From positions 1-64,000 of the forward strand of contig NZ_WMBA01000002.1 of assembly GCF_009707865.1 (NCBI RefSeq): 64,000 bases of DNA. Reading direction: 5' to 3'. The stretch comes from Amycolatopsis pithecellobii (GTDB taxonomy: Bacteria; Actinomycetota; Actinomycetes; Mycobacteriales; Pseudonocardiaceae). The notes beneath the pieces were generated by a model, which was not told the origin of the DNA, did not search any database, and saw only the letters and a list, made by a program, of their open reading frames with translations. Numbering within the stretch: the stretch's first letter is position 1; each line of letters begins with the position of its first letter. The position numbers and the translations under genes were made by a program. Positions 23,529 to 62,810 of the stretch are shown here, piece after piece.

Positions 23529-26500
23529 ATGGGGCTTTCGCAGGTTACCAAGCCGACCGGAAGCAGGCGGATACGCATCCGCAGCCGACCTGCTCGTAGG
23601 AACTATTTCCGCCGTGGCTGTAGTCGGATTGGTCACGAACGGCGCAGCAGACGGGGGCTGGCGCTGGTCGCCGGCCTCATGGTTACCTCTGGTGTCGTGC
23701 CGACCGTGCAGGCGGCTGCGGCGCCGGCGCCGCAGGATCTGGCGAAGTGGGTCAACCCCTTCGTCGGGACCCGTCCTGGCGGCGCGGACCACGGCACTGG
23801 CGGCGGCGCCGGCAACACGTTCCCCGGCGCGGTGGTGCCGTTCGGGATGATGCAGTGGAGTCCCGACACCGTCACCGAGCAGCAGGGCGGCTACTTCTAC
23901 GACAGCACCGCGCTCAAGGGCTTCAGCCTGACGCACCTTTCCGGCGCCGGCTGCGACACCTATGAGGACATCCCATTCATTCCGTACGCGGGCGAGGTCA
24001 CCACTTCGCCCGCGACCGATCCCGGCCGGTACACGATGCCGTTCTCGCACGCGAATGAGCAGGCGACGGCCGGCAAGTACGCCGTCAAACTGGACAGCGG
24101 CGTGAACGTCGAGCTGACCGCGACCCAGCGCACCGGCTCCGGCCGGTTCTCCTATCCACAGAACAGCCCCGCGACTCTGCTGATCAACAGCTCGGGCTCG
24201 ATCACGGGCACCGACGACGCGCAGATCACGATCGGGCGCGACAGCGTCAGCGGCTGGGCCGCCAGCGGCCGCTTCTGTGGCACCGACTCCCATTACCGCG
24301 TGTACTTCTACGCGAAGTTCGACCAGCCCTTCGCATCGATCGGAACTTGGCGCAACGGCACCGTCACCCCGGGCAAGACCACCGAAAACGGTGGCGCACA
24401 GGCGAAAATCGCCCCGCAGACGATGATGGCGCGCTCGCAGTCGAGGCCGCCGACGAACACGACGGTGAGCGGACCCGGCAGTGGCGGTTACGTCACGTTC
24501 GCGCCGGGCGCCTCCGTGAACGTCCAAGTAGGACTGTCCTTTGTGTCCACCGATGGGGCGCAGGCGAACGTGCGCGCGGAGAACAACCACCGCTCGTTCG
24601 ACGACGTCGCCGCCGCGGCCCGCAAGGCGTGGAACGACCGGCTCAACCAGGTTCAGGTGACGGGCGGCTCGCGCGCCGACAAGACGACGTTCTACACCGC
24701 GCTCTATCACTCGCTGATCCAGCCGAACGTCTTCTCCGACGCCGACGGCAGGTACACCGGATTCGACGGCCGGGTGCACACGGCCGACCGCGGCCACGCG
24801 ATGTACACCAACTTCTCCGGCTGGGATATCTATCGCTCGGAAATCCAGCTGCTGGCTTTGCTGGCGCCCAAGGAGACTTCCGATATCGCGCGGTCGATGA
24901 TCGCCTACGCGGCGCAGGGCGGGTCGTGGGACCGCTGGACGGTGGCGAACGACTACACCGGCGTGATGAACGGCGACCCGTACCACATCATCGTCTCCAG
25001 TGCGTATGCCTTCGGCGCCAAGGACTTCGACGCGAACACCGCCTTGCTGTCGATGGTCCGTGGCGCCACCCAGCCCACCACGCAGGGCTATACCGAGCGC
25101 CCGGGACTGGCGGACTATCAGACGCTCGGGTACGTGCCGGGTGCCGGTGCGGACACTCTGGAGTACACGAGCGCGGACTTCTCCATCGCCCAGCTCGCGC
25201 AGCGGCTGGGAGACAGCTCGACGTATCAGAGCTTCATGAAACGGGCTCAGTACTGGCAAAACCTGTACAACCCTGCGACCGGCTACCTCCAGCCGCGTCA
25301 GGCCGATGGCACGTTCAGTACGCCGTACAACCCGGCCGGCTCGTCCGGCTGGGTTGAAGGAAATGGCGCGCAGTACAGCTGGATGGTGCCGTACAATGCG
25401 GCCGGACTGGTCACCGCCTATGGCGGGAACCAGCCGACTCAGTCGCGTTTGGACGAATTCTTCACCGAACTCAACGCCGGGACCCAGGATCCGCATGCCT
25501 TTCTTGGCAACGAACCCAACGCGAACGCCCCGTGGCTGTACGACTTCGCCGGAGCGCCGTACAAGACGCAGGCGCTCGTGCGGCGGGCGATGACCCAGCT
25601 GTACAACCCGAACCCGGAAGGCATCGTCGGAAACGACGACCTCGGGCAGATGTCCTCGTGGTACGTCTGGTCGGCCCTCGGTATGTACCCGGAGATCCCT
25701 GGCCGCGCCGAACTCGTGCTCGGCTCGCCGTCGTTCTCGAACGTCGTGCTGACCACCGGGCTCGGCAAGAAGATCACGATCAACGCCACGGGCAGCGGTC
25801 AGTATGTGACAGGGTTGAAGGTCAACGGCGTCACCACGACGAAACCGTGGCTGCCCGAGGCATTCGTCGCCAACGGCGGCACGCTCGACTTCGCACTGTC
25901 CGGCACGCCAGACACGTCGTGGGGTGCCGCCGCGGCCGACGCGCCACCGTCCTTCCGGGATGGTGAGACACCTGCTGTGTCCTTTGTGGACCCATCAGGT
26001 CTGGTGGTGCCGAGCGGCACCAGCGGCACCGCGTCGATCGGCGCGCAGGACCTGTCCGGTACCACCCGGACCTGGCACTGGACCGCCGCGCCACCGGCGG
26101 GGATCACGGTCACCCCGTCTTCCGGTGATCTCGTCCTTCCTGCCGGCGGCAAGGCTCAGGCGACCGTGACGGTGAGCGTCGCGGGCGGAACGGCCGACGG
26201 GCGCTATCAGGTGCCGATCACGTTGAGCGGTGCCGGTCAGCTGTCGGCCACGCTCGGTGTGCTTGTCGCGCAACCGGGGAGCTGGCTCGCCACGGTGAAC
26301 AACGCCGGAATTTCGCCGGACGCCAAGCCGGCCGCAGGGAACTTCGATGGTGGCGGTTGGAGCTACTCCGCCGACGCGCTGGCCGCCGCCGGTGCGAAGG
26401 CGGGCAGCACGGTCAACGTGGGTGGGCTGTCCTACAGCTGGCCCGGTTTTCCGGCCGGTTCGCCGGACAACGCGATCGCACAGGGGCAGCGGGTGACCGT

Positions 26501-26840
26501 GTCCGGCAGTGGGCGGCTCGCGTTCCTCGGCGCCGGTGCCAACGGCAACGCCTCGGGCACGGTGACGATCACCTACACCGACGGCAGCACCACCACGGCG
26601 AACCTGGGCTTCTCCGACTGGACGCTCGGCGGTGGCGGCGCGCAACCGGCGTTCGGCAACCAGATCGCTTTCACCACGCCGTATCGCAACAGCGGTGGCG
26701 GAAACCCGCAGCAGATCAACACCTACGTGTTCGCCAGCGCGCCGATCGCACTGGCCGCCGGCAAGACCGTCCAAAGTGTCACGTTGCCGCAGAACGTCTC
26801 AGGTGGACAGTTGCATGTCTTCGCGATCGGAGTTGGCTGA
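23529..26840 (+). CDS. secreted GH92 alpha-mannosidase with C-terminal beta-sandwich modules
   Basis: The 1103-residue protein starts at ATG 23529, 6 bp after AGGAGG. An unusually long basic leader (about 45 residues, rich in Arg) precedes the hydrophobic core RGLALVAGLMVTSGVVPTVQA and a likely signal cleavage site. The GH92 body (about 75-800) has WVNPFVGTRPGG, the proposed acid Glu610 in GWVEGNGAQYSW and the base pair Asp703/Asp704 in GNDDLGQMSSWYVWSALG. GH92 enzymes are calcium-dependent exo-alpha-mannosidases of fungal mannans or N-glycans. Two further domains follow: an alpha-galactosidase NEW3-like module (about 820-910) and a beta-sandwich of unknown type (TWLATV- to IGVG-like end). 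The basic leader codons 5-37 lie in a copy of the dispersed 96-bp element. Confidence 0.9.
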   Translation: MGLSQVTKPTGSRRIRIRSRPARRNYFRRGCSRIGHERRSRRGLALVAGLMVTSGVVPTVQAAAAPAPQDLAKWVNPFVGTRPGGADHGTGGGAGNTFPGAVVPFGMMQWSPDTVTEQQGGYFYDSTALKGFSLTHLSGAGCDTYEDIPFIPYAGEVTTSPATDPGRYTMPFSHANEQATAGKYAVKLDSGVNVELTATQRTGSGRFSYPQNSPATLLINSSGSITGTDDAQITIGRDSVSGWAASGRFCGTDSHYRVYFYAKFDQPFASIGTWRNGTVTPGKTTENGGAQAKIAPQTMMARSQSRPPTNTTVSGPGSGGYVTFAPGASVNVQVGLSFVSTDGAQANVRAENNHRSFDDVAAAARKAWNDRLNQVQVTGGSRADKTTFYTALYHSLIQPNVFSDADGRYTGFDGRVHTADRGHAMYTNFSGWDIYRSEIQLLALLAPKETSDIARSMIAYAAQGGSWDRWTVANDYTGVMNGDPYHIIVSSAYAFGAKDFDANTALLSMVRGATQPTTQGYTERPGLADYQTLGYVPGAGADTLEYTSADFSIAQLAQRLGDSSTYQSFMKRAQYWQNLYNPATGYLQPRQADGTFSTPYNPAGSSGWVEGNGAQYSWMVPYNAAGLVTAYGGNQPTQSRLDEFFTELNAGTQDPHAFLGNEPNANAPWLYDFAGAPYKTQALVRRAMTQLYNPNPEGIVGNDDLGQMSSWYVWSALGMYPEIPGRAELVLGSPSFSNVVLTTGLGKKITINATGSGQYVTGLKVNGVTTTKPWLPEAFVANGGTLDFALSGTPDTSWGAAAADAPPSFRDGETPAVSFVDPSGLVVPSGTSGTASIGAQDLSGTTRTWHWTAAPPAGITVTPSSGDLVLPAGGKAQATVTVSVAGGTADGRYQVPITLSGAGQLSATLGVLVAQPGSWLATVNNAGISPDAKPAAGNFDGGGWSYSADALAAAGAKAGSTVNVGGLSYSWPGFPAGSPDNAIAQGQRVTVSGSGRLAFLGAGANGNASGTVTITYTDGSTTTANLGFSDWTLGGGGAQPAFGNQIAFTTPYRNSGGGNPQQINTYVFASAPIALAAGKTVQSVTLPQNVSGGQLHVFAIGVG
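23543..23640 (-). repeat. dispersed TIR element, copy C (inside GH92 coding sequence)
   Basis: In minus-strand orientation this copy begins GTTCGTGACCAATCCGACTA and ends with CGGTCGGCTTGGTAACC. Its ends match those of copies A (61582) and B (41762), while the middle is more diverged. The terminal inverted repeats are GTGACCAATCCGAC and GTTACCAAGCCGAC. Read on the plus strand it encodes part of the basic N-terminal leader of the first GH92 protein, so it seems to have become coding DNA. Confidence 0.65.
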
Positions 26841-40803: not shown

Positions 40804-41193
40804 TCAGGGCACCGCCGGTGTGGGGCCTTCCCGCACCGGTAGCCCGGCCGCGCGCCACGCCCGGAAGCCGCCGTCGAGATCCGTCGCCCGCACACCGAGG
40901 CGCTGCAGATCCGCCGCGGCGAGGCTGGACGCGTAACCCTCGTTGCACACCACCACAACCGGCCGATCGGCACGCACCTCGGGCAGCCGGTGCGCGCTCG
41001 CCGGATCGAGGCGCCATTCCAGGTGGATGCGTTCGATCGGCACCGAGCCGGGAATCTCGCCTTCCGCGGCCCGGTTCGAAAACGGCCGGATGTCCACGAT
41101 CAGCGCGCCCTGGTCCTGCAGAGCCCGCGCGCCCGCCGGGTCGACCCGGTCCAGCCGGGACCGGGCCTCGGCGAGCATCTCATCGATCGTCAT
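40804..41193 (-). CDS. rhodanese-like sulfurtransferase
   Basis: The 129-residue single-domain rhodanese has the active cysteine Cys83 in VVVCNEGYASS, with loop CNEGYA, and conserved blocks ALIVDIRPFSNRAAEGEIPGSV and LDGGFRAWRAAGLPV. It transfers sulfane sulfur, for example from thiosulfate. Its ATG overlaps the stop of the cysteine dioxygenase gene (ATGA), so both are made together. Cysteine dioxygenase yields cysteine sulfinate and sulfite, so this rhodanese probably handles sulfur released on that route (inference). Confidence 0.92.
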   Translation of the reverse strand: MTIDEMLAEARSRLDRVDPAGARALQDQGALIVDIRPFSNRAAEGEIPGSVPIERIHLEWRLDPASAHRLPEVRADRPVVVVCNEGYASSLAAADLQRLGVRATDLDGGFRAWRAAGLPVREGPTPAVP

Positions 41194-41729
41194 CGGGGCA
41201 ATATTGGCGCAAGCGGCGGGATTTCGCTCGGCACGTCGGCCAGCGACGCGTAGGCGCGAGTCGGCACGAGCGGCGGCGAGTACGCGTGCACGCTGGCCGA
41301 CGGCGCGGTTCCGGCGCCGGTCACCTGGTGCGCGCGCCCCGCGCCGAAGCCGAGGCCGTCACCGGCCTTGTGCGTGCGCGTGCGGATCGGGCCGCCGGGA
41401 TAGCGGTATTCCTCGGTGAGTTCTCCCTGCAGCACGGTGAACGAACCAGACGCGCCACCGTGGTCATGCGGCTGGGTGTGCTGGCCCGGCAGCCACGCCA
41501 GCAGCCACAGCTCGAGCCCGTCGGTCAGCGCGAGACGGGCCCACCAGCGCCGCTCGGCGTCGAAGTGCAGGATCTCACGAAGTGGACCGGCCAGCTCGCG
41601 CGTGACCTTGCCGGTCAGGTCGGCCAGCTGCGCGGGTGTCCACAGTAGACGCGACGGGGCGAGGGCATCGGGGGCGAGCGCGCCGGTCAGGTGCGGGTGG
41701 ATCTCGATGTCAAGAAGGGACTGGGTCAA
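41190..41729 (-). CDS. cysteine dioxygenase (type I)
   Basis: The 179-residue cupin oxidises cysteine to cysteine sulfinic acid with Fe(II) and O2. The iron ligands are His88, His90 (HTQPHDHGGASGSF) and His134 (GAGRAHQV). The second-sphere Ser-His-Tyr triad is SVHAY (Ser146, His148, Tyr150). The bacterial type lacks the Cys-Tyr crosslink, here Gly92 (HDHGG). The start is a TTG at 41727-41729 with CAGGAG about 7 bp upstream, and no nearer ATG or GTG exists. It is the first gene of a two-gene operon with the rhodanese. Confidence 0.92.
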   Translation of the reverse strand: MTQSLLDIEIHPHLTGALAPDALAPSRLLWTPAQLADLTGKVTRELAGPLREILHFDAERRWWARLALTDGLELWLLAWLPGQHTQPHDHGGASGSFTVLQGELTEEYRYPGGPIRTRTHKAGDGLGFGAGRAHQVTGAGTAPSASVHAYSPPLVPTRAYASLADVPSEIPPLAPILPR

Positions 41730-41761
41730 CAGAGACTCCTGTGTGGTCTGGGTACTGCGCT

Positions 41762-41857
41762 GTTCGTTCTAGTCCGACCACAGTCACGGCCATCCGGCTT
41801 GCGCAGGAACGGTTACCTGCTGCTGGGGGTCCTGCCTGCTTTTGGTCGGACTAGTAA
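41762..41857 (+). repeat. dispersed TIR element, copy B
   Basis: This 96-bp copy lies between the divergent cysteine dioxygenase and ABC ATPase genes. The ends are inverted repeats: GTTCTAGTCCGACCA on the left and TGGTCGGACTAGTAAC on the right, with a perfect core of TAGTCCGACCA. It is about 85% identical to copy A over its whole length by eye, including the inner block GGTTACCTGCTGCT. The rest of the 41730-42067 gap shows no gene. Confidence 0.75.
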
Positions 41858-42067
41858 CCGGACACGGTGAACGAACCGGTACAGCCACACGAGGCCACGA
41901 GGAGCAGATCGACGGTGCGGTCACGCCAGAGGCGCCCGGCAGGCGGGAAGGTCAGGGACGTGTGCACAGAGCGATGGTGCCACGGTTTCGGCTACCCCAG
42001 GTGACGTCTCACGTTCTGGTACGGGGCCGCTGCCGGGAGACCGCCCGGCGACCACCACAATGGGCGC

Positions 42068-42865
42068 GTGAGCGACAACCTTGACGACCTCGTGGTGCGG
42101 ATGTCGGCCGTAGGGGTCCGCCGCCACCGCAACGACCTGCTCGCCGACCTCGACTGGGCGGTTGAGCTGGACGAACGATGGGTCGTACTCGGCCCGAACG
42201 GTGCGGGCAAGACGACGTTGCTGCGCCTTGCCGCCGCCGAGTTGCACCCCACGACCGGCACCATCGATCTCCTCGGCGAGCGGATCGGCAAGGTCAACAT
42301 CTTCGAACTGCGGCCCCGGATCGGCTTCACCTCCGCGGCGCTCGCGGCCAGGGTCCCCGGCGACGAAATGGTCAAGGATGTCGTGGTCAGCGCCGGTTAT
42401 GCGGTCATCGGCCGGTGGCGCGAGGAGTACGAGAGCCTCGATCTGAACCGGGCGATGGAGCTGCTCGCCGCATTGGGTGTGACACATCTCGCGGAGCGCA
42501 CTTTCGGCACCCTGTCCGAGGGCGAGCGCAAGCGCGTCCTGATCGCCCGCGCGCTGATGACCGACCCCGAGATGCTGCTGCTCGACGAGCCGGCCGCGGG
42601 CCTCGACCTCGGTGGCCGCGAGGATCTGGTGGCGCGGTTGTCCACGCTTGCGCTGGACCCGGACGCGCCTGCGACGGTGTTGGTGACCCACCATGTCGAG
42701 GAGATCCCGCCCGGGTTCACGCACGCGTTGCTGCTGCGTGAGGGCCGCGCCGTGGTCTCTGGGTTGATCGACGAGGTGCTGACGGCGGAGAACCTGTCCA
42801 AGACGTTCGACCAGGACCTGCTGCTGGAGCGTTCGGGCGACCGGTTTTTCGCACGGCGGCGGTAG
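42068..42865 (+). CDS. ABC transporter ATP-binding protein, stand-alone
   Basis: The 265-residue ATPase has Walker A GPNGAGKTT (42-50), Walker B MLLLDEPAAGLDLG and a degenerate signature TLSEGERKRV in place of LSGGQ. The closing H-motif is VTHHVEEI. No permease or binding protein is next to it, and the order of its genes suggests it is not a standard importer. Similar stand-alone ATPases are often named iron or molybdenum transporters by automatic tools without evidence. The GTG start at 42068 has no strong ribosome site. The enoyl-CoA hydratase gene follows 39 bp downstream. Confidence 0.85.
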   Translation: MSDNLDDLVVRMSAVGVRRHRNDLLADLDWAVELDERWVVLGPNGAGKTTLLRLAAAELHPTTGTIDLLGERIGKVNIFELRPRIGFTSAALAARVPGDEMVKDVVVSAGYAVIGRWREEYESLDLNRAMELLAALGVTHLAERTFGTLSEGERKRVLIARALMTDPEMLLLDEPAAGLDLGGREDLVARLSTLALDPDAPATVLVTHHVEEIPPGFTHALLLREGRAVVSGLIDEVLTAENLSKTFDQDLLLERSGDRFFARRR

Positions 42866-57932: not shown

Positions 57933-60900
57933 TCATTCCCCTTCGAGGTCGCCTTCCGTCTGGAGGTAGACCTCGCGTAGCCGGTCCAGCAGGTCCGGGT
58001 CCGGCTCGGCCCACAGGCCGCGGTCCGCGGCTTCCGTGAGGCGTTCGATGATGCCGCGGAGCGCCCAGGGGTTCGACTTCGTCAGAAAGTCCTGGTTCTG
58101 CTTGTCCAGAACGTACGACTCGGACAGTTTCTCGTACATCCAGTCGTCCACCACACCGGCCGTCGCGTCGAAACCGAACAGGTAGTCGACTGTCGCGGCG
58201 AGTTCGAAGGCGCCTTTGTAGCCGTGCTTGCGCATCGCGGCCAGCCAGCGTGGATTCACCACCCTGGCACGGAAAACCCGCGCTGTCTCCTCATGCAGCG
58301 AACGCGTGCGCACCAGGTCCGGGCTCGTCGAGTCGCCGATGTAGGAAGCCGGTGCCTCGCCGGTCAACGCGCGGGTGAACGCGATCATGCCGCCGTGGTA
58401 CTGGAAATAGTCGTCGGAATCGGCGATGTCGTGCTCGCGGGTGTCGGTGTTCTTGGCGGCGACAACGATCCGGCGGTACGAGCTTTCCATGTCCTCGCGG
58501 GCCGGTTTCCCATCCAGCTCCCGGCCGTACGCGTAACCACCCCACGTCGCGTACACCTCGGCCAGGTCGGCGTCGTCACGCCAGTTGCCGGAGTCCATCA
58601 GCGGCAGCAGGCCCGCGCCGTAGGCGCCCGGCTTCGAACCGAAAATCCTCGTGGTGGCGCGACGTTCGTCACCATGACTGTCCAGATCGGACAGATAGTG
58701 GGCGCGGACGTAGTTCTCCTCGGGAGACTCGTCCAAGGCCGCGACGAGCCGCACGGCATCGTCGAGAAGGTCGGTCACGTGCGGAAACGCGTCGCGGAAG
58801 AAGCCCGAAATCCGCACCGTCACGTCGATCCGCGGGCGGCCGAGCTCGGCGAGCGGGACCGCCTCCAAGCCGGTGACCCGCCGGGACGCCTCGTCCCAGC
58901 TGGGCTGAACCCCAAGCAGTGCAAGCACTTCCGCGGCGTCATCGCCGGACGTGCGCATCGCCGAGGTGCCCCACACCGAAAGCCCGACCGACCGTGGCCA
59001 GTCCCCGGTGTCCTCCCGGTACCGTTTCACCAGCGAATCCGCCAGTGCCTGGCCGGTTTCCCACGCCAGCCGGCTCGGGATGGCCTTCGGGTCCACGGTG
59101 TAGAAGTTGCGGCCCGTCGGCAGGACGTTCACCAAGCCCCGCAAGGGAGAACCGCTCGGCCCGGCCGGAATGTACCCGCCGTCCAAGGCATGCAGCACCG
59201 CGTCGAGCTCGCCCGCCGTGCCCGCGAGCCGCGGCACGATCTCCGTCGCGGCGAACCGCAACACCGAGGCCACCGGCTCCTCGGCGGTGATCGCGTCCAC
59301 CGACCAGTTCGCGGCCTCCAGCTCTTCCACGAGGGCGCGTGCGGTCTGCTCGACAGAGTCCACATCGGACAGTGGGGCGTCGTCCTTGAGACCCAGCGCG
59401 GATCGCAGACCCGGGACCGCACCTGCCTTGCCACCCCACATCTGCTGCGCGCGCAGCATCGCCAGTACCAGGTTCACCCTGGCTTCCCCGGTCGGCGCTT
59501 CGCCCAGGATGTGCAGGCCGTCGCGGATCTGCGCGTCCTTCACCTCACACAGCCAGCCGTCGATGTGCAGCAGGAAGTCGTCGAACTCCACGTCATGCGG
59601 CCGTTCCGACACACCGAGATCGTGATCGAGCTTCGCCGCCTGGATCAGCGTCCAGATCTGTGCGCGGATCGCGGGCAGTTTCGCCGGGTCCATCGCCGCG
59701 ATGTTCGCGTGCTCGTCGAGCAACTGTTCCAGCCGCGCGAGGTCACCGTAACTCTCGGCGCGCGCCATCGGCGGGATGAGGTGGTCCACGATCGTCGCGT
59801 GTGCACGGCGCTTGGCCTGTGCGCCCTCACCGGGATCGTTGATCAGGAACGGGTAGATCAACGGCAGATTACCGAGCACGGCGTCCGGCGCGCACGACGC
59901 CGACAGGCCTGCCGTCTTACCCGGCAGCCATTCCAGTGAGCCGTGCTTTCCCAAGTGGACGATCGCGTGTGCGCCGAATTCTTCTTCCAGCCAGCGGTAC
60001 GCCGCAAGATAATGGTGGCTCGGCGGCAGATCCGGGTTGTGGTAGATCGCCACCGGGTTCTCGCCGAACCCGCGCGGCGGCTGAATCATCAGCACGACGT
60101 TGCCGGCCTGCAGTGACGCCAGCACGATGTCCCCGTTGTCCACATAAAGCTCACCGGGCGGCGGGCCCCAGTGCTGTTCCATCTCCGCACGCAAGTCCTC
60201 GGGCAGTGCGGCGAACCACTCGCGATACCGCTCGGCCGGGACGCGGATCGGGTTACCGGCCAGCTGTTCCTCGGTCAGCCACTCGGGATCCTGGCCACCG
60301 GCGGCGATGAGCGCGTGGATCAGCTCGTCCCCGTTGCCGGACTCGACACCGGGGAACGGCTCGGCGCCGAGGTCGTAACCCCCGGAAATCATGCGGCGCA
60401 ACAACTTCACCGCCGACGCCGGCGTGTCGAGGCCGACCGCGTTGCCCACCCGCGAATGTTTGGTGGGATAGGCGGACAGCATCAGCGCGACGCGGCGCTG
60501 GGGCGGTGGCGTATGCCGCAACCGCGCGTGTGCCAGCGCTATCCGGGCCACCCGGGACGCACGCTCGGCGTCGGGCGTATAACGCGGCAGGCCGTCCTCG
60601 TCGAGTTCCTTGAAGGAGAAGGGAACCGTGATGATCCGGCCGTCGAACTCCGGCACCGCCATCTGGTTCCCGGCGTCCAAAGGCGACAGTCCCTCATCGC
60701 TCGCCGCCCAGGTTTCACGGTCACTGGTGAGGCAGAGCGCCTGCAGGATCGGGATGTCGAGCGCGGCCAGCTCTGCGACGTCCCACGCTTCGTCGTCACC
60801 ACCGGCACCGACCGCGGAGGGCCTGGTGCCACCCGCGGCGAGCACGGTGACCAGCAACGCGTCGGCCTTGCCCAGCTCCGCCATCATTTCCGGCTCGCGC

Positions 60901-61475
60901 GTACGCAGGGACGCGCAGTGGATCGGCAAGGCCTGGCCACCGGCGTCCTCGACCGCGCTCGCCAGTGCCTCGACGAACGCGGTGTTGCCTGACAAGTGAT
61001 GGGCGCGGTAATAGAGGATCGCGACGACCGGCCCCTCGGTGCGGCGCGGCTTCCGGTCCAGCACACCCCACATCGGCTGCGGTGCGGGCGGTTCGAACCC
61101 GTCACCGGTCAGCAGCAGCGTGTCGGACAGGAACCGGTGGAGCTGGGTGAGGTTCTCCGGGCCGCCCTGCGCCAGATACCTGTGCGCCTCGGTCGCGATA
61201 CCGGCGGGCACCGTGGACAGCTCCATCAGCTCCGCGTCCGGCGCCTGCTCGCCGCCCAGCACCACGACATGCGCACCGCTGGCGCGTACCGCGTCCAAGC
61301 CCTCCTGCCACGTACGCGCCGACCCGAGAATGCGCACCACGACGATCCGCACGCCATCCAGCAACGCGGGCAATTCGCCGAGGTCGAGCCGGGCGGGGTT
61401 TGCCAGCCGGTAGCCAGCCGCGCACGCACGCGCACTCAGCAGGTCTGTGTCCGAAGTGGACAGCAACAGGATCAC
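57933..61475 (-). CDS. cobN: cobaltochelatase subunit CobN
   Basis: The 1180-residue protein is the large subunit of the ATP-dependent cobaltochelatase, which inserts Co(II) into hydrogenobyrinic acid a,c-diamide in the aerobic cobalamin route. Marks are the N-terminal ILLLSTSDTDLL and the conserved AYPTKHSRVGNAVGLDTPAS, HLGKHGSLEWLPGKT, LIYPFLINDPGEGAQAKRR and GSKPGAYGAGLLPLMDSGNW blocks. It works with CobS/CobT or a ChlI/ChlD-type AAA pair, which are not in the window. GTG 61475 follows GGGAGG, which decides the start over the longer frame. It is divergent from cobG, with copy A of the TIR element in the gap. Confidence 0.96.
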   Translation of the reverse strand: MILLLSTSDTDLLSARACAAGYRLANPARLDLGELPALLDGVRIVVVRILGSARTWQEGLDAVRASGAHVVVLGGEQAPDAELMELSTVPAGIATEAHRYLAQGGPENLTQLHRFLSDTLLLTGDGFEPPAPQPMWGVLDRKPRRTEGPVVAILYYRAHHLSGNTAFVEALASAVEDAGGQALPIHCASLRTREPEMMAELGKADALLVTVLAAGGTRPSAVGAGGDDEAWDVAELAALDIPILQALCLTSDRETWAASDEGLSPLDAGNQMAVPEFDGRIITVPFSFKELDEDGLPRYTPDAERASRVARIALAHARLRHTPPPQRRVALMLSAYPTKHSRVGNAVGLDTPASAVKLLRRMISGGYDLGAEPFPGVESGNGDELIHALIAAGGQDPEWLTEEQLAGNPIRVPAERYREWFAALPEDLRAEMEQHWGPPPGELYVDNGDIVLASLQAGNVVLMIQPPRGFGENPVAIYHNPDLPPSHHYLAAYRWLEEEFGAHAIVHLGKHGSLEWLPGKTAGLSASCAPDAVLGNLPLIYPFLINDPGEGAQAKRRAHATIVDHLIPPMARAESYGDLARLEQLLDEHANIAAMDPAKLPAIRAQIWTLIQAAKLDHDLGVSERPHDVEFDDFLLHIDGWLCEVKDAQIRDGLHILGEAPTGEARVNLVLAMLRAQQMWGGKAGAVPGLRSALGLKDDAPLSDVDSVEQTARALVEELEAANWSVDAITAEEPVASVLRFAATEIVPRLAGTAGELDAVLHALDGGYIPAGPSGSPLRGLVNVLPTGRNFYTVDPKAIPSRLAWETGQALADSLVKRYREDTGDWPRSVGLSVWGTSAMRTSGDDAAEVLALLGVQPSWDEASRRVTGLEAVPLAELGRPRIDVTVRISGFFRDAFPHVTDLLDDAVRLVAALDESPEENYVRAHYLSDLDSHGDERRATTRIFGSKPGAYGAGLLPLMDSGNWRDDADLAEVYATWGGYAYGRELDGKPAREDMESSYRRIVVAAKNTDTREHDIADSDDYFQYHGGMIAFTRALTGEAPASYIGDSTSPDLVRTRSLHEETARVFRARVVNPRWLAAMRKHGYKGAFELAATVDYLFGFDATAGVVDDWMYEKLSESYVLDKQNQDFLTKSNPWALRGIIERLTEAADRGLWAEPDPDLLDRLREVYLQTEGDLEGE

Positions 61476-61581
61476 GCGGGGCCTCCCTGGTTCTCGCCTT
61501 CTCACTCTCCGGGGGCGGACGGCTCCGCGTCAAGCGGATCGCTCGCCGGGCCGAGGGAACCGCTGAGTGGAGTACTGTGCC

Positions 61582-61677
61582 GTTCGTTACCAATCCGACC
61601 ACAGTCACGGCTATCCGGCTTGTGTGGCAAGGGTTACCTGCTGCTCGGGGTCTGCCTACTTTTGATCGGATTAGTAA
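61582..61677 (+). repeat. dispersed TIR element, copy A (cobN-cobG gap)
   Basis: This 96-bp copy lies between divergent cobN (start 61475) and cobG (start 61755). Its left end TTACCAATCCGACCA and right end TGATCGGATTAGTAA are inverted repeats with 13 of 15 matches. The inner sequence (CACAGTCACGGC, ATCCGGCTTG, GGTTACCTGCTGCT) is shared with copy B. It takes the place where a cobalamin riboswitch might be expected; I see no B12-box-like motif here. It can fold with a 15-bp outer stem. Confidence 0.75.
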
Positions 61678-61754
61678 ATCACCTCCAGGCCCGCCGCTCG
61701 ACCTGGTGTGCCCCGTTCACGACTGTCAGCTGGTCCAGGAGTTACCGTTGGACC

Positions 61755-62810
61755 ATGTCCGTCCGAGTCCGGCCCGATGCGTGCCCCGGTGTGTTCGCGA
61801 CGCACGACGCTGCGGACGGGGCGCTGGCCAGGGTCCGGCTGCCCGGCGGCCGGGTGTCCGCGGCCCAGCTGGAGGTGCTCGCGGGCTGCGCGGACGAGCT
61901 CGGTGACGGTTCGGTGCACTTGACCTCGCGCGGGAATGTCCAGTTGCGCGGGCTTGCCCCGGACACGGGGGAGCTGGTGGGCCGGCTGGCCGACGCCGGC
62001 CTGCTGCCCGCGCCTTCGCACGAGCGGGTGCGCAACTTCCTCGCGTCGCCGCTGAGCGGGCTCGCGGGAGGTGCGGTGGACGTGCGGCCGCTGGTCGCCG
62101 AGCTGGACGCGGCCGTGTGCGCGGAGCCGGCGCTGGCCGGGCTGCCGGGGCGGTTCCTGTTCGCGCTCGACGACGGTCGTGGTGATGTCGCTGCCGAGGA
62201 CGCCGACCTGTGCTGGCAGGCGCTCGACGCGCGGACCGGGGTGGTCTTGCGTGCGGGGCAGCCCGGTCCGGCGGTTCCGCTCGGTGAAGCCGTCGCGGTG
62301 CTGGTGCGGGAAGCGTTGCGGTTCCTCGATATCCGGGGCAGTGCGTGGCGGATGCGGGAACTGCCAGGCTTTTCCGGCTCGCCCGGCCGCCCGCGGCCGG
62401 TGTCGCCCGGTGCCTTCGCACGGGATGACGGCGGACAGGGGATATGCGTGGCACCGTTGTTCGGTGAATTGACCGCCTCGCAGGTGAGGTCGTTCGGTGG
62501 TGACGTGGTGGTGACGCCGTGGCGCAGCGTTGTGGTGCCGCAGTTCCGGGCGGACCTGCTGGAGCTGTCGAGCGACACCATGGTGAGCGCCTGCATCGGC
62601 CGGCCGGGCTGCGCCAAGTCACGCGCGGACGTGCGGGCCGACGCGCGGCGGGTGTCGGCGCGGGCGCACTTCTCCGGCTGTGAACGGCGGTGCGGTAAGC
62701 CGCGTGACGCGGTGGACGTGGTGGCCGCCGACGGGGGTTACCTGGTCGACGGCGCGGTGGTGCCGGTCGACGCGCTGGTGGATGTGTTGGCACAGAAGGG
62801 AAACCGGTGA
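61755..62810 (+). CDS. cobG: precorrin-3B synthase
   Basis: The 351-residue protein is a siroheme/nitrite-reductase-like Fe-S monooxygenase that makes precorrin-3B, a step specific to the aerobic route. Marks are the nitrite reductase ferredoxin-like half domains ([39 protein letters not shown]) and the C-terminal cluster motif [15 protein letters not shown], with two later cysteines [11 protein letters not shown] for the 4Fe-4S centre. The ATG at 61755 has a weak ribosome site, with GGAG about 14 bp away. The stop overlaps the cobH start by four bases (GTGA). The AT-poor gap upstream holds copy A of the TIR element. Confidence 0.93.

Follow-up and report, generated by a model that had tools for sequence, protein, structure and literature searches.

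The window analysed here, a stretch of 64,000 nucleotides from the genome of Amycolatopsis pithecellobii, contains three short sequences with similar ends that can pair with each other, and they raise the question of what kind of element is dispersed in this soil bacterium and by what means it spread. A first-pass annotation had described three related elements; all of them (copies A, B, and C) were recovered at the same places, and a profile built from the three detects just these in the 64-kb window (E values of 1.5e-29, 2.9e-27, and 2.2e-26, each copy itself being part of the profile). Their kinship is far beyond chance, given the at least 91 family matches that a covariance model built from 30 copies finds in this genome at E ≤ 1e-6. 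The copies, and the arms of copy A as placed by alignment, are as follows.

Copy A, 61573..61678, forward strand: 106-bp match, consisting of a mobile unit at 61575-61676 (102 bp) and 2 target bases per side
Copy A left inverted arm GTTACCAATCCGACC, 61586..61600, forward strand: set 11 bp inward of the left insertion point
Copy A right inverted arm, 61664..61678, forward strand: extends to the right insertion point and into the flank by 2 bases
Copy B, 41753..41858, forward strand: 106-bp match, mobile unit at 41755-41856
Copy C, 23544..23649, reverse strand: 106-bp match with a different interior (subfamily B), mobile unit at 23546-23647

In aligned copies, conservation sets in sharply at TACTGTGCCGTTC, continues into the arm GTTACYAATCCGACC, and ends with GGTCGGATTRGTAAC. 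The 106-bp match comprises a 102-bp mobile unit and 4 target bases, and the 102-bp length was reached by three routes, namely, the period of tandem copies, empty sites in relatives, and an insert in the GH92 protein. Copy A had been drawn from position 61582, but the conserved stretches of the three copies extend about 9 bp farther on the left side of the element. Likewise, the terminal inverted repeats of 15 to 16 bp proved to be 15-bp arms that are terminal at the right end, but the left arm lies 11 bp inside the insertion point. Because the unit begins 11 bp outside its left arm, the left end looks shifted relative to an ordinary terminal repeat.

The search of the whole genome and of relatives that the annotation had proposed revealed further copies both here and in other genomes of the genus. 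Copy A as a BLAST query matched at least 40 places in this genome, including itself (40 of 104 candidates were scored), and the covariance model gave at least 96 matches at E ≤ 1e-3 among the best 150 of 7,079 candidates, at least two of those 150 being the opposite strand of a listed copy. We gathered 204 distinct copies from Amycolatopsis, 184 of which measure 104 to 107 bp when aligned to the 106-bp model. Shorter than 500 bp, dispersed, present in many copies, and without a transposase gene, the 102-bp unit has the makeup of a type II miniature inverted-repeat transposable element (MITE).

Incomplete copies also occur. There are 72 left-end matches in this genome, and the 11 that fall outside the covariance-model list look like truncated copies, one or two of which may be chance matches; among the right-end matches listed (of 161), the 12 right-end-only places inspected are fragments. 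The left-end-only (L256-L265) and right-end-only (L266-L276) fragments of this genome are 20 to 60 bp long, and some of the latter lie close behind an apparent stop codon. Near position 2300 of locus L267 (G000:C78:105284) is a 41-bp copy with an internal deletion that retains barely more than the two ends. Truncation in one direction is unsupported, since both kinds of fragment occur. None of the left-end matches inspected in this genome belongs to an autonomous element of greater length that shares this end; on contig C80, two fragments, a left end and a right end separated by 740 bp, flank a tetR-like gene (function assigned by eye).

The arms form a hairpin whose pairing is conserved beyond its sequence. 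Pairing counts were compared with shuffles over 175 copies, a comparison that related rows inflate. The three inner arm pairs are nearly invariant and hence uninformative for covariation, and each of the next seven shows Watson-Crick pairing far above shuffles (0/5,000 each). Even the outermost two pairs, which reach into the flank, are Watson-Crick more often than in shuffles (151/175 versus 120.5, and 101/175 versus 89.7, P = 0.0008). Such strong compensatory changes in every variable arm pair, together with conserved internal-loop bases, are what would be expected of a dispersed regulatory or structural RNA family, its hairpin being kept for a function of the transcript in the cell. We nevertheless regard this reading as very unlikely. 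Hairpin conservation is usual among bacterial MITEs as PMC2229807 describes them, and Rfam holds no match to the element: the whole window at gathering scores yields two tRNAs only, and the region around copy A (61540-61720) yields nothing at E ≤ 10. Above all, empty sites, tandem copies, and in-frame copies in unrelated genes speak for mobility without a shared context.

Empty sites were sought by searching the joined flanks of 19 and of 16 copies against 19 genomes of the genus, and alignments were made for 30 loci (two of them being occupied own sites) and for 50 further loci. The net insertion at empty sites in relatives is 102 bp, at a TA-like dinucleotide that is usually followed by A, and locus L232 against L295 gives one such pair. 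Relatives are continuous through the junction at C67:217637 (three of four relatives cleanly), C72:30682, C71:6654, and C111:163595 and likewise at L299 (15 relatives), L304 (4), L349 (3), and L358 (6). At C133:123610 and C69:68029, relatives run through the junction with a gap of one to three bases nearby, and gapped or one-sided matches were obtained at C99, C63, C77, C11, C57:74642, C57:3890, L310, L365, and C14. The remaining joined sites had no aligned relative among the loci aligned, and L011 gave no clean empty site, the region being too changed. Occupied and empty states of orthologous sites, as looked for in type II MITEs, are thus both present. Tandem copies recur with a 102-bp period, three at C82 (G000:C82:16665-16974) and two at C100 (G000:C100:177579-177785). 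These arrays are head to tail and joined at TA. Elsewhere, two identical copies lie 170 bp apart with the same flanks (L281:1501-1775, G004:C26), apparently a local duplication of a copy plus its flank. Together with the in-frame copies in unrelated genes, the empty sites and tandem copies show that the element is mobile and has no shared context; the first-pass annotation had named compensatory stem changes or empty sites, in dozens of copies, as the support to look for, and both were found.

The genes at and around the window copies are as follows.

GH92 alpha-mannosidase-like gene, 23529..26840, forward strand: ATG at 23529 after GGAGG; PF17678 and PF07971; copy C near its start
cobG-like gene, neighbor of copy A, 61755..62810, forward strand: PF03460
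CobN-like open reading frame, divergent from the cobG-like gene, 57933-61505, reverse strand: CobN assigned by eye
ABC transporter ATPase gene, neighbor of copy B, 42068..42865, forward strand: PF00005
Cysteine dioxygenase-like gene, on the other side of copy B, 41190-41729, reverse strand: PF05995

All three copies had been placed at the 5' side of genes, and this holds for A and B, which lie between divergent genes, but copy C is within the 5' coding part of the GH92 gene, as an exact in-frame insert of 34 codons near its start; homologues do without the 34 residues. The nearest Amycolatopsis GH92 homologue starts MGLSRVRRGLALAAGL, and the protein encoded in the window reads MGLSQV, 34 extra residues, and RRGLALVAGL. 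The insert apparently led gene prediction astray: the database protein (P0001, 1,053 amino acids) begins at a later ATG, downstream of the insert, and lacks most of the signal peptide, so that the start of this secreted mannosidase gene is corrected here. Other genes harbor in-frame copies as well. A hydantoinase B and a thiolase each show two stretches of their domain (PF02538 and PF00108, respectively), the better one starting right after the insert; in an MMPL transporter, PF03176 ends right before the insert, and in an ECF sigma factor gene, the PF04542 match stops at it. Scanning 202 copies yielded 5 clear in-frame cases with coding sequence on both sides, the scan having looked for open frames only and therefore giving cases rather than a rate. 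Such genes amount to natural 34-residue insertion experiments in conserved enzymes.

Target preference was analyzed in 175 of the 204 copies, 29 having been dropped with an arm off its standard column or a length outside 101 to 109. The left dinucleotide is TA in 119 and the right in 141 of the 175, the next base is A in 142, and the left and right dinucleotides are the same in 104. Where the left dinucleotide differs from TA (56 copies), it recurs on the right in 4 copies, and TA stands there in 41. From these counts, any target duplication spans no more than 2 bp and is frequently inexact; the check for duplications of 2 to 9 bp that had been suggested yields a dinucleotide TA at most, and none is longer. 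In the flanks of 89 copies, the left dinucleotide and the right A(C) are followed outward by no clear consensus, and no longer duplication is seen. TA is not strictly required at several pre-sites; where the relatives have another dinucleotide, the left dinucleotide of the occupied site equals theirs at C133, L358, and C57:3890 and is TA at C72, C11, L299, and C71. Later substitution or repair of mismatched dinucleotides would explain both outcomes.

The element carries an internal GTTA, the complement of the preferred target TAAC, and one could suppose that the element moves as a folded single strand that pairs with its target, a recombinase other than an IS630 transposase joining the unit within the short duplex. 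Consistent with this, the two outermost stem pairs use flank bases, which are target derived, and still covary, yet some of the copies represent the same old insertion in several species. Copies with G at arm position 14 have C as their flank base in 10 of 11 cases, compared with 7 of 146 for those with T at this position, although some of these G14 copies with flank C likewise appear to be one old insertion across several species. The pre-site of C67:217637, whose copy has A at position 14, carries the matching T in three relatives. Against these agreements, the arm and the left target dinucleotide pair no more often than in shuffles (P = 0.09 and 0.17; 175 copies), and the base is A at C14:2633, also a G14 copy. 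At L299, the occupied copy has C opposite G14, but all 15 relatives have A there, which means that arm and flank can come to match once the element is in place. Such a match could be created without selection by template switching from one imperfect arm to the other. We therefore consider movement by hairpin-target pairing improbable.

Evidence on the mobilizing enzyme comes from another Amycolatopsis genome (G012), which has two insertion sequence (IS) copies of 1.14 kb that are 93.7% identical and end in GTTACTAATGAGTTCGGAAGTAGGTC and GTTACTAAGGAGTTCGTAAGTAAGTC; they were the best of ten IS630-like loci, from a DDE_3 search, whose ends were inspected. Between the repeats lies a gene for a 350-amino-acid IS630-family transposase (NF033545, E = 9.5e-67). 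The repeat ends share GTTACTAA-N9-AAGTAGG with the element, and the consensus of the element's right end agrees in register with the IS ends at 17 to 18 of 25 positions for one end and at 16 to 17 of 25 for the other, with at most 1 in 20,000 shuffles being as good. The left 11 bp outside the arm are unlike the IS ends, and unanchored alignment of the element with the whole IS is not above shuffles. A related autonomous IS end is thus found for the right end only, in G012, outside the carrier genomes. A scan of 19 genomes for the pattern GTTACYAA-N8-10-AAGTAGG gives hits in 6, namely, five carriers and G012 (20 in G000, 12 in G007, 8 in G004, 2 in G009, 1 in G006, and 2 in G012), and the reversed-pattern control gives 0. 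Many hits in carriers coincide with listed copies, and the two in G012 are the ends of its two IS copies. In addition, a single element in another genus (G021) has the same left extension, and both its arms match the IS ends (19 to 22 of 29 positions).

DDE_3 matches occur in 6 of the 7 carriers, the exception being G009 with its 33 copies, and in 3 of the 12 noncarriers. The noncarrier G012 has 17 DDE_3 matches, far above any other of the 19 genus genomes, and no element copy at E ≤ 1e-6. DDE_3 loci fetched from G000, G004, G006, G007, and G010 gave no match to the G012 transposase at E ≤ 1e-3, and the one from G018 is 22% identical to it. Annotated transposases 86 to 87% like that of G012 exist in A. 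rubida, itself a carrier of the element, and under “MULTISPECIES” Amycolatopsis. A hairpin of about 100 bp without a long target duplication would also fit a REPIN-like element moved by a RAYT (Y1 HUH) transposase. We rejected this reading, whose probability appears close to negligible: PF01797 is missing from all 7 carriers and present in 1 of the 19 genus genomes (G012), and the element ends match an IS630 repeat instead.

The family is unevenly distributed. Copies at E ≤ 1e-6 were found in 7 of 19 genus genomes, this one with at least 91 and six more: A. alkalitolerans (G004) with 47, A. acidicola (G009) with 33, Amycolatopsis sp. GM8 (G007) with 31, G018 with 6, G006 with 5, and G010 with 2. 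Copy A as a DNA query matched 8 of 61 relatives at E ≤ 1e-3, including one (G021) from a different genus of the host's family; the 24 genomes from other families gave no match. A pattern scan gave at least 107 loci; of the 80 run through the covariance model, the 42 from Amycolatopsis, representing 17 named species or strains, all match, and the other 38 do not. Carriage by plasmids or phages was rejected, copy A having no match in PLSDB or in a phage collection. As at least two insertions are common to this genome and A. alkalitolerans, part of the family is old. Three loci from A. circi, A. orientalis, and A. nivea (L104, L109, and L167) have the same left flank and a similar right flank, suggesting one old shared insertion, and L064 and L127 look like another. 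Copies A and B had been judged very similar, their spread being recent or maintained by selection. At 85% identity (BLAST), this pair gives no evidence of recent spread, but the best other matches to copy A are 93 to 95% identical.

Overall, the suggestion that the elements carry no transposase and resemble MITEs is borne out by copy number, empty sites, a fixed 102-bp insertion, a TA-like target, and IS630-family end similarity. We consider it likely that the element is a miniature nonautonomous DNA transposon (type II MITE) with a TA target, IS630/Tc1-like and moved by an IS630-type transposase. A full-length relative would make an IS630-family transposase; the enzyme would recognize the ends by the motif GTTACYAA-N9-AAGTAGG, which is best preserved on the right, and would insert the 102-bp unit at TA-like dinucleotides, as a rule with A as the next base. 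Within genes, the unit adds 34 codons and can survive as a protein insert. From the sequence comparisons, we infer that an IS630 lineage of the G012 type may be the present or past mobilizer and that the chemistry of the step is probably of this type. The element is a new family of a known kind with an atypical left end that has 11 extra bp. One possible extension, which we hold to be rather unlikely, is that the right arm serves the transposase as an ordinary IS630 end and the left cut falls 11 bp outside the arm, that the folded arms pair with flanking target bases so that targets are chosen partly by hairpin-target complementarity, and that the 34-codon unit is a recurrent source of in-frame inserts.

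A literature search on MITEs or repeats of Amycolatopsis, Pseudonocardiaceae, or actinobacteria, covering titles and the beginnings of abstracts, revealed no such family. For the genus, this adds a short mobile family whose boundaries are exact, together with its empty sites and a candidate mobilizing transposase; the shared and private insertions of the family can serve as markers of strain history, and its shifted left end offers a way to test which end rules IS630-type transposases follow. Among known systems, Rickettsia palindromic elements are likewise found in frame inside unrelated protein genes (PMC10969869), but, as described there, they measure about 150 bp and lie mostly inside genes, whereas the Amycolatopsis element gave 5 clear in-frame cases among 202 copies. 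ERIC of enterobacteria (about 127 bp) shares the palindrome, the TA termini, and a copy number that is very variable between species (PMC2229807, PMC10969869); the excerpts of these two sources used here name no mobilizing element for ERIC, whereas the Amycolatopsis element has an IS630-family candidate. The Correia/NEMIS elements of Neisseria are also small palindromes with TA ends, a 107-bp form having empty sites that give 105 bp, and they also form in-frame gene fusions (PMC2229807); in the account given there, 24-bp terminal repeats stand at both ends, whereas one end is shifted in Amycolatopsis. RUP, the repeat unit of pneumococcus, is a gene-free element of 107 bp with about 100 copies, a TA target, and IS630-Spn1 as its proposed mobilizer (PMC2229807). 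The present family differs from it in its host, in a left arm that is subterminal by 11 bp, and in a candidate IS that resides in another species of the genus, with none in the carriers searched, but it resembles RUP, as portrayed in that source, in size, copy number, TA target, IS630-family-like ends, and the lack of a gene of its own.
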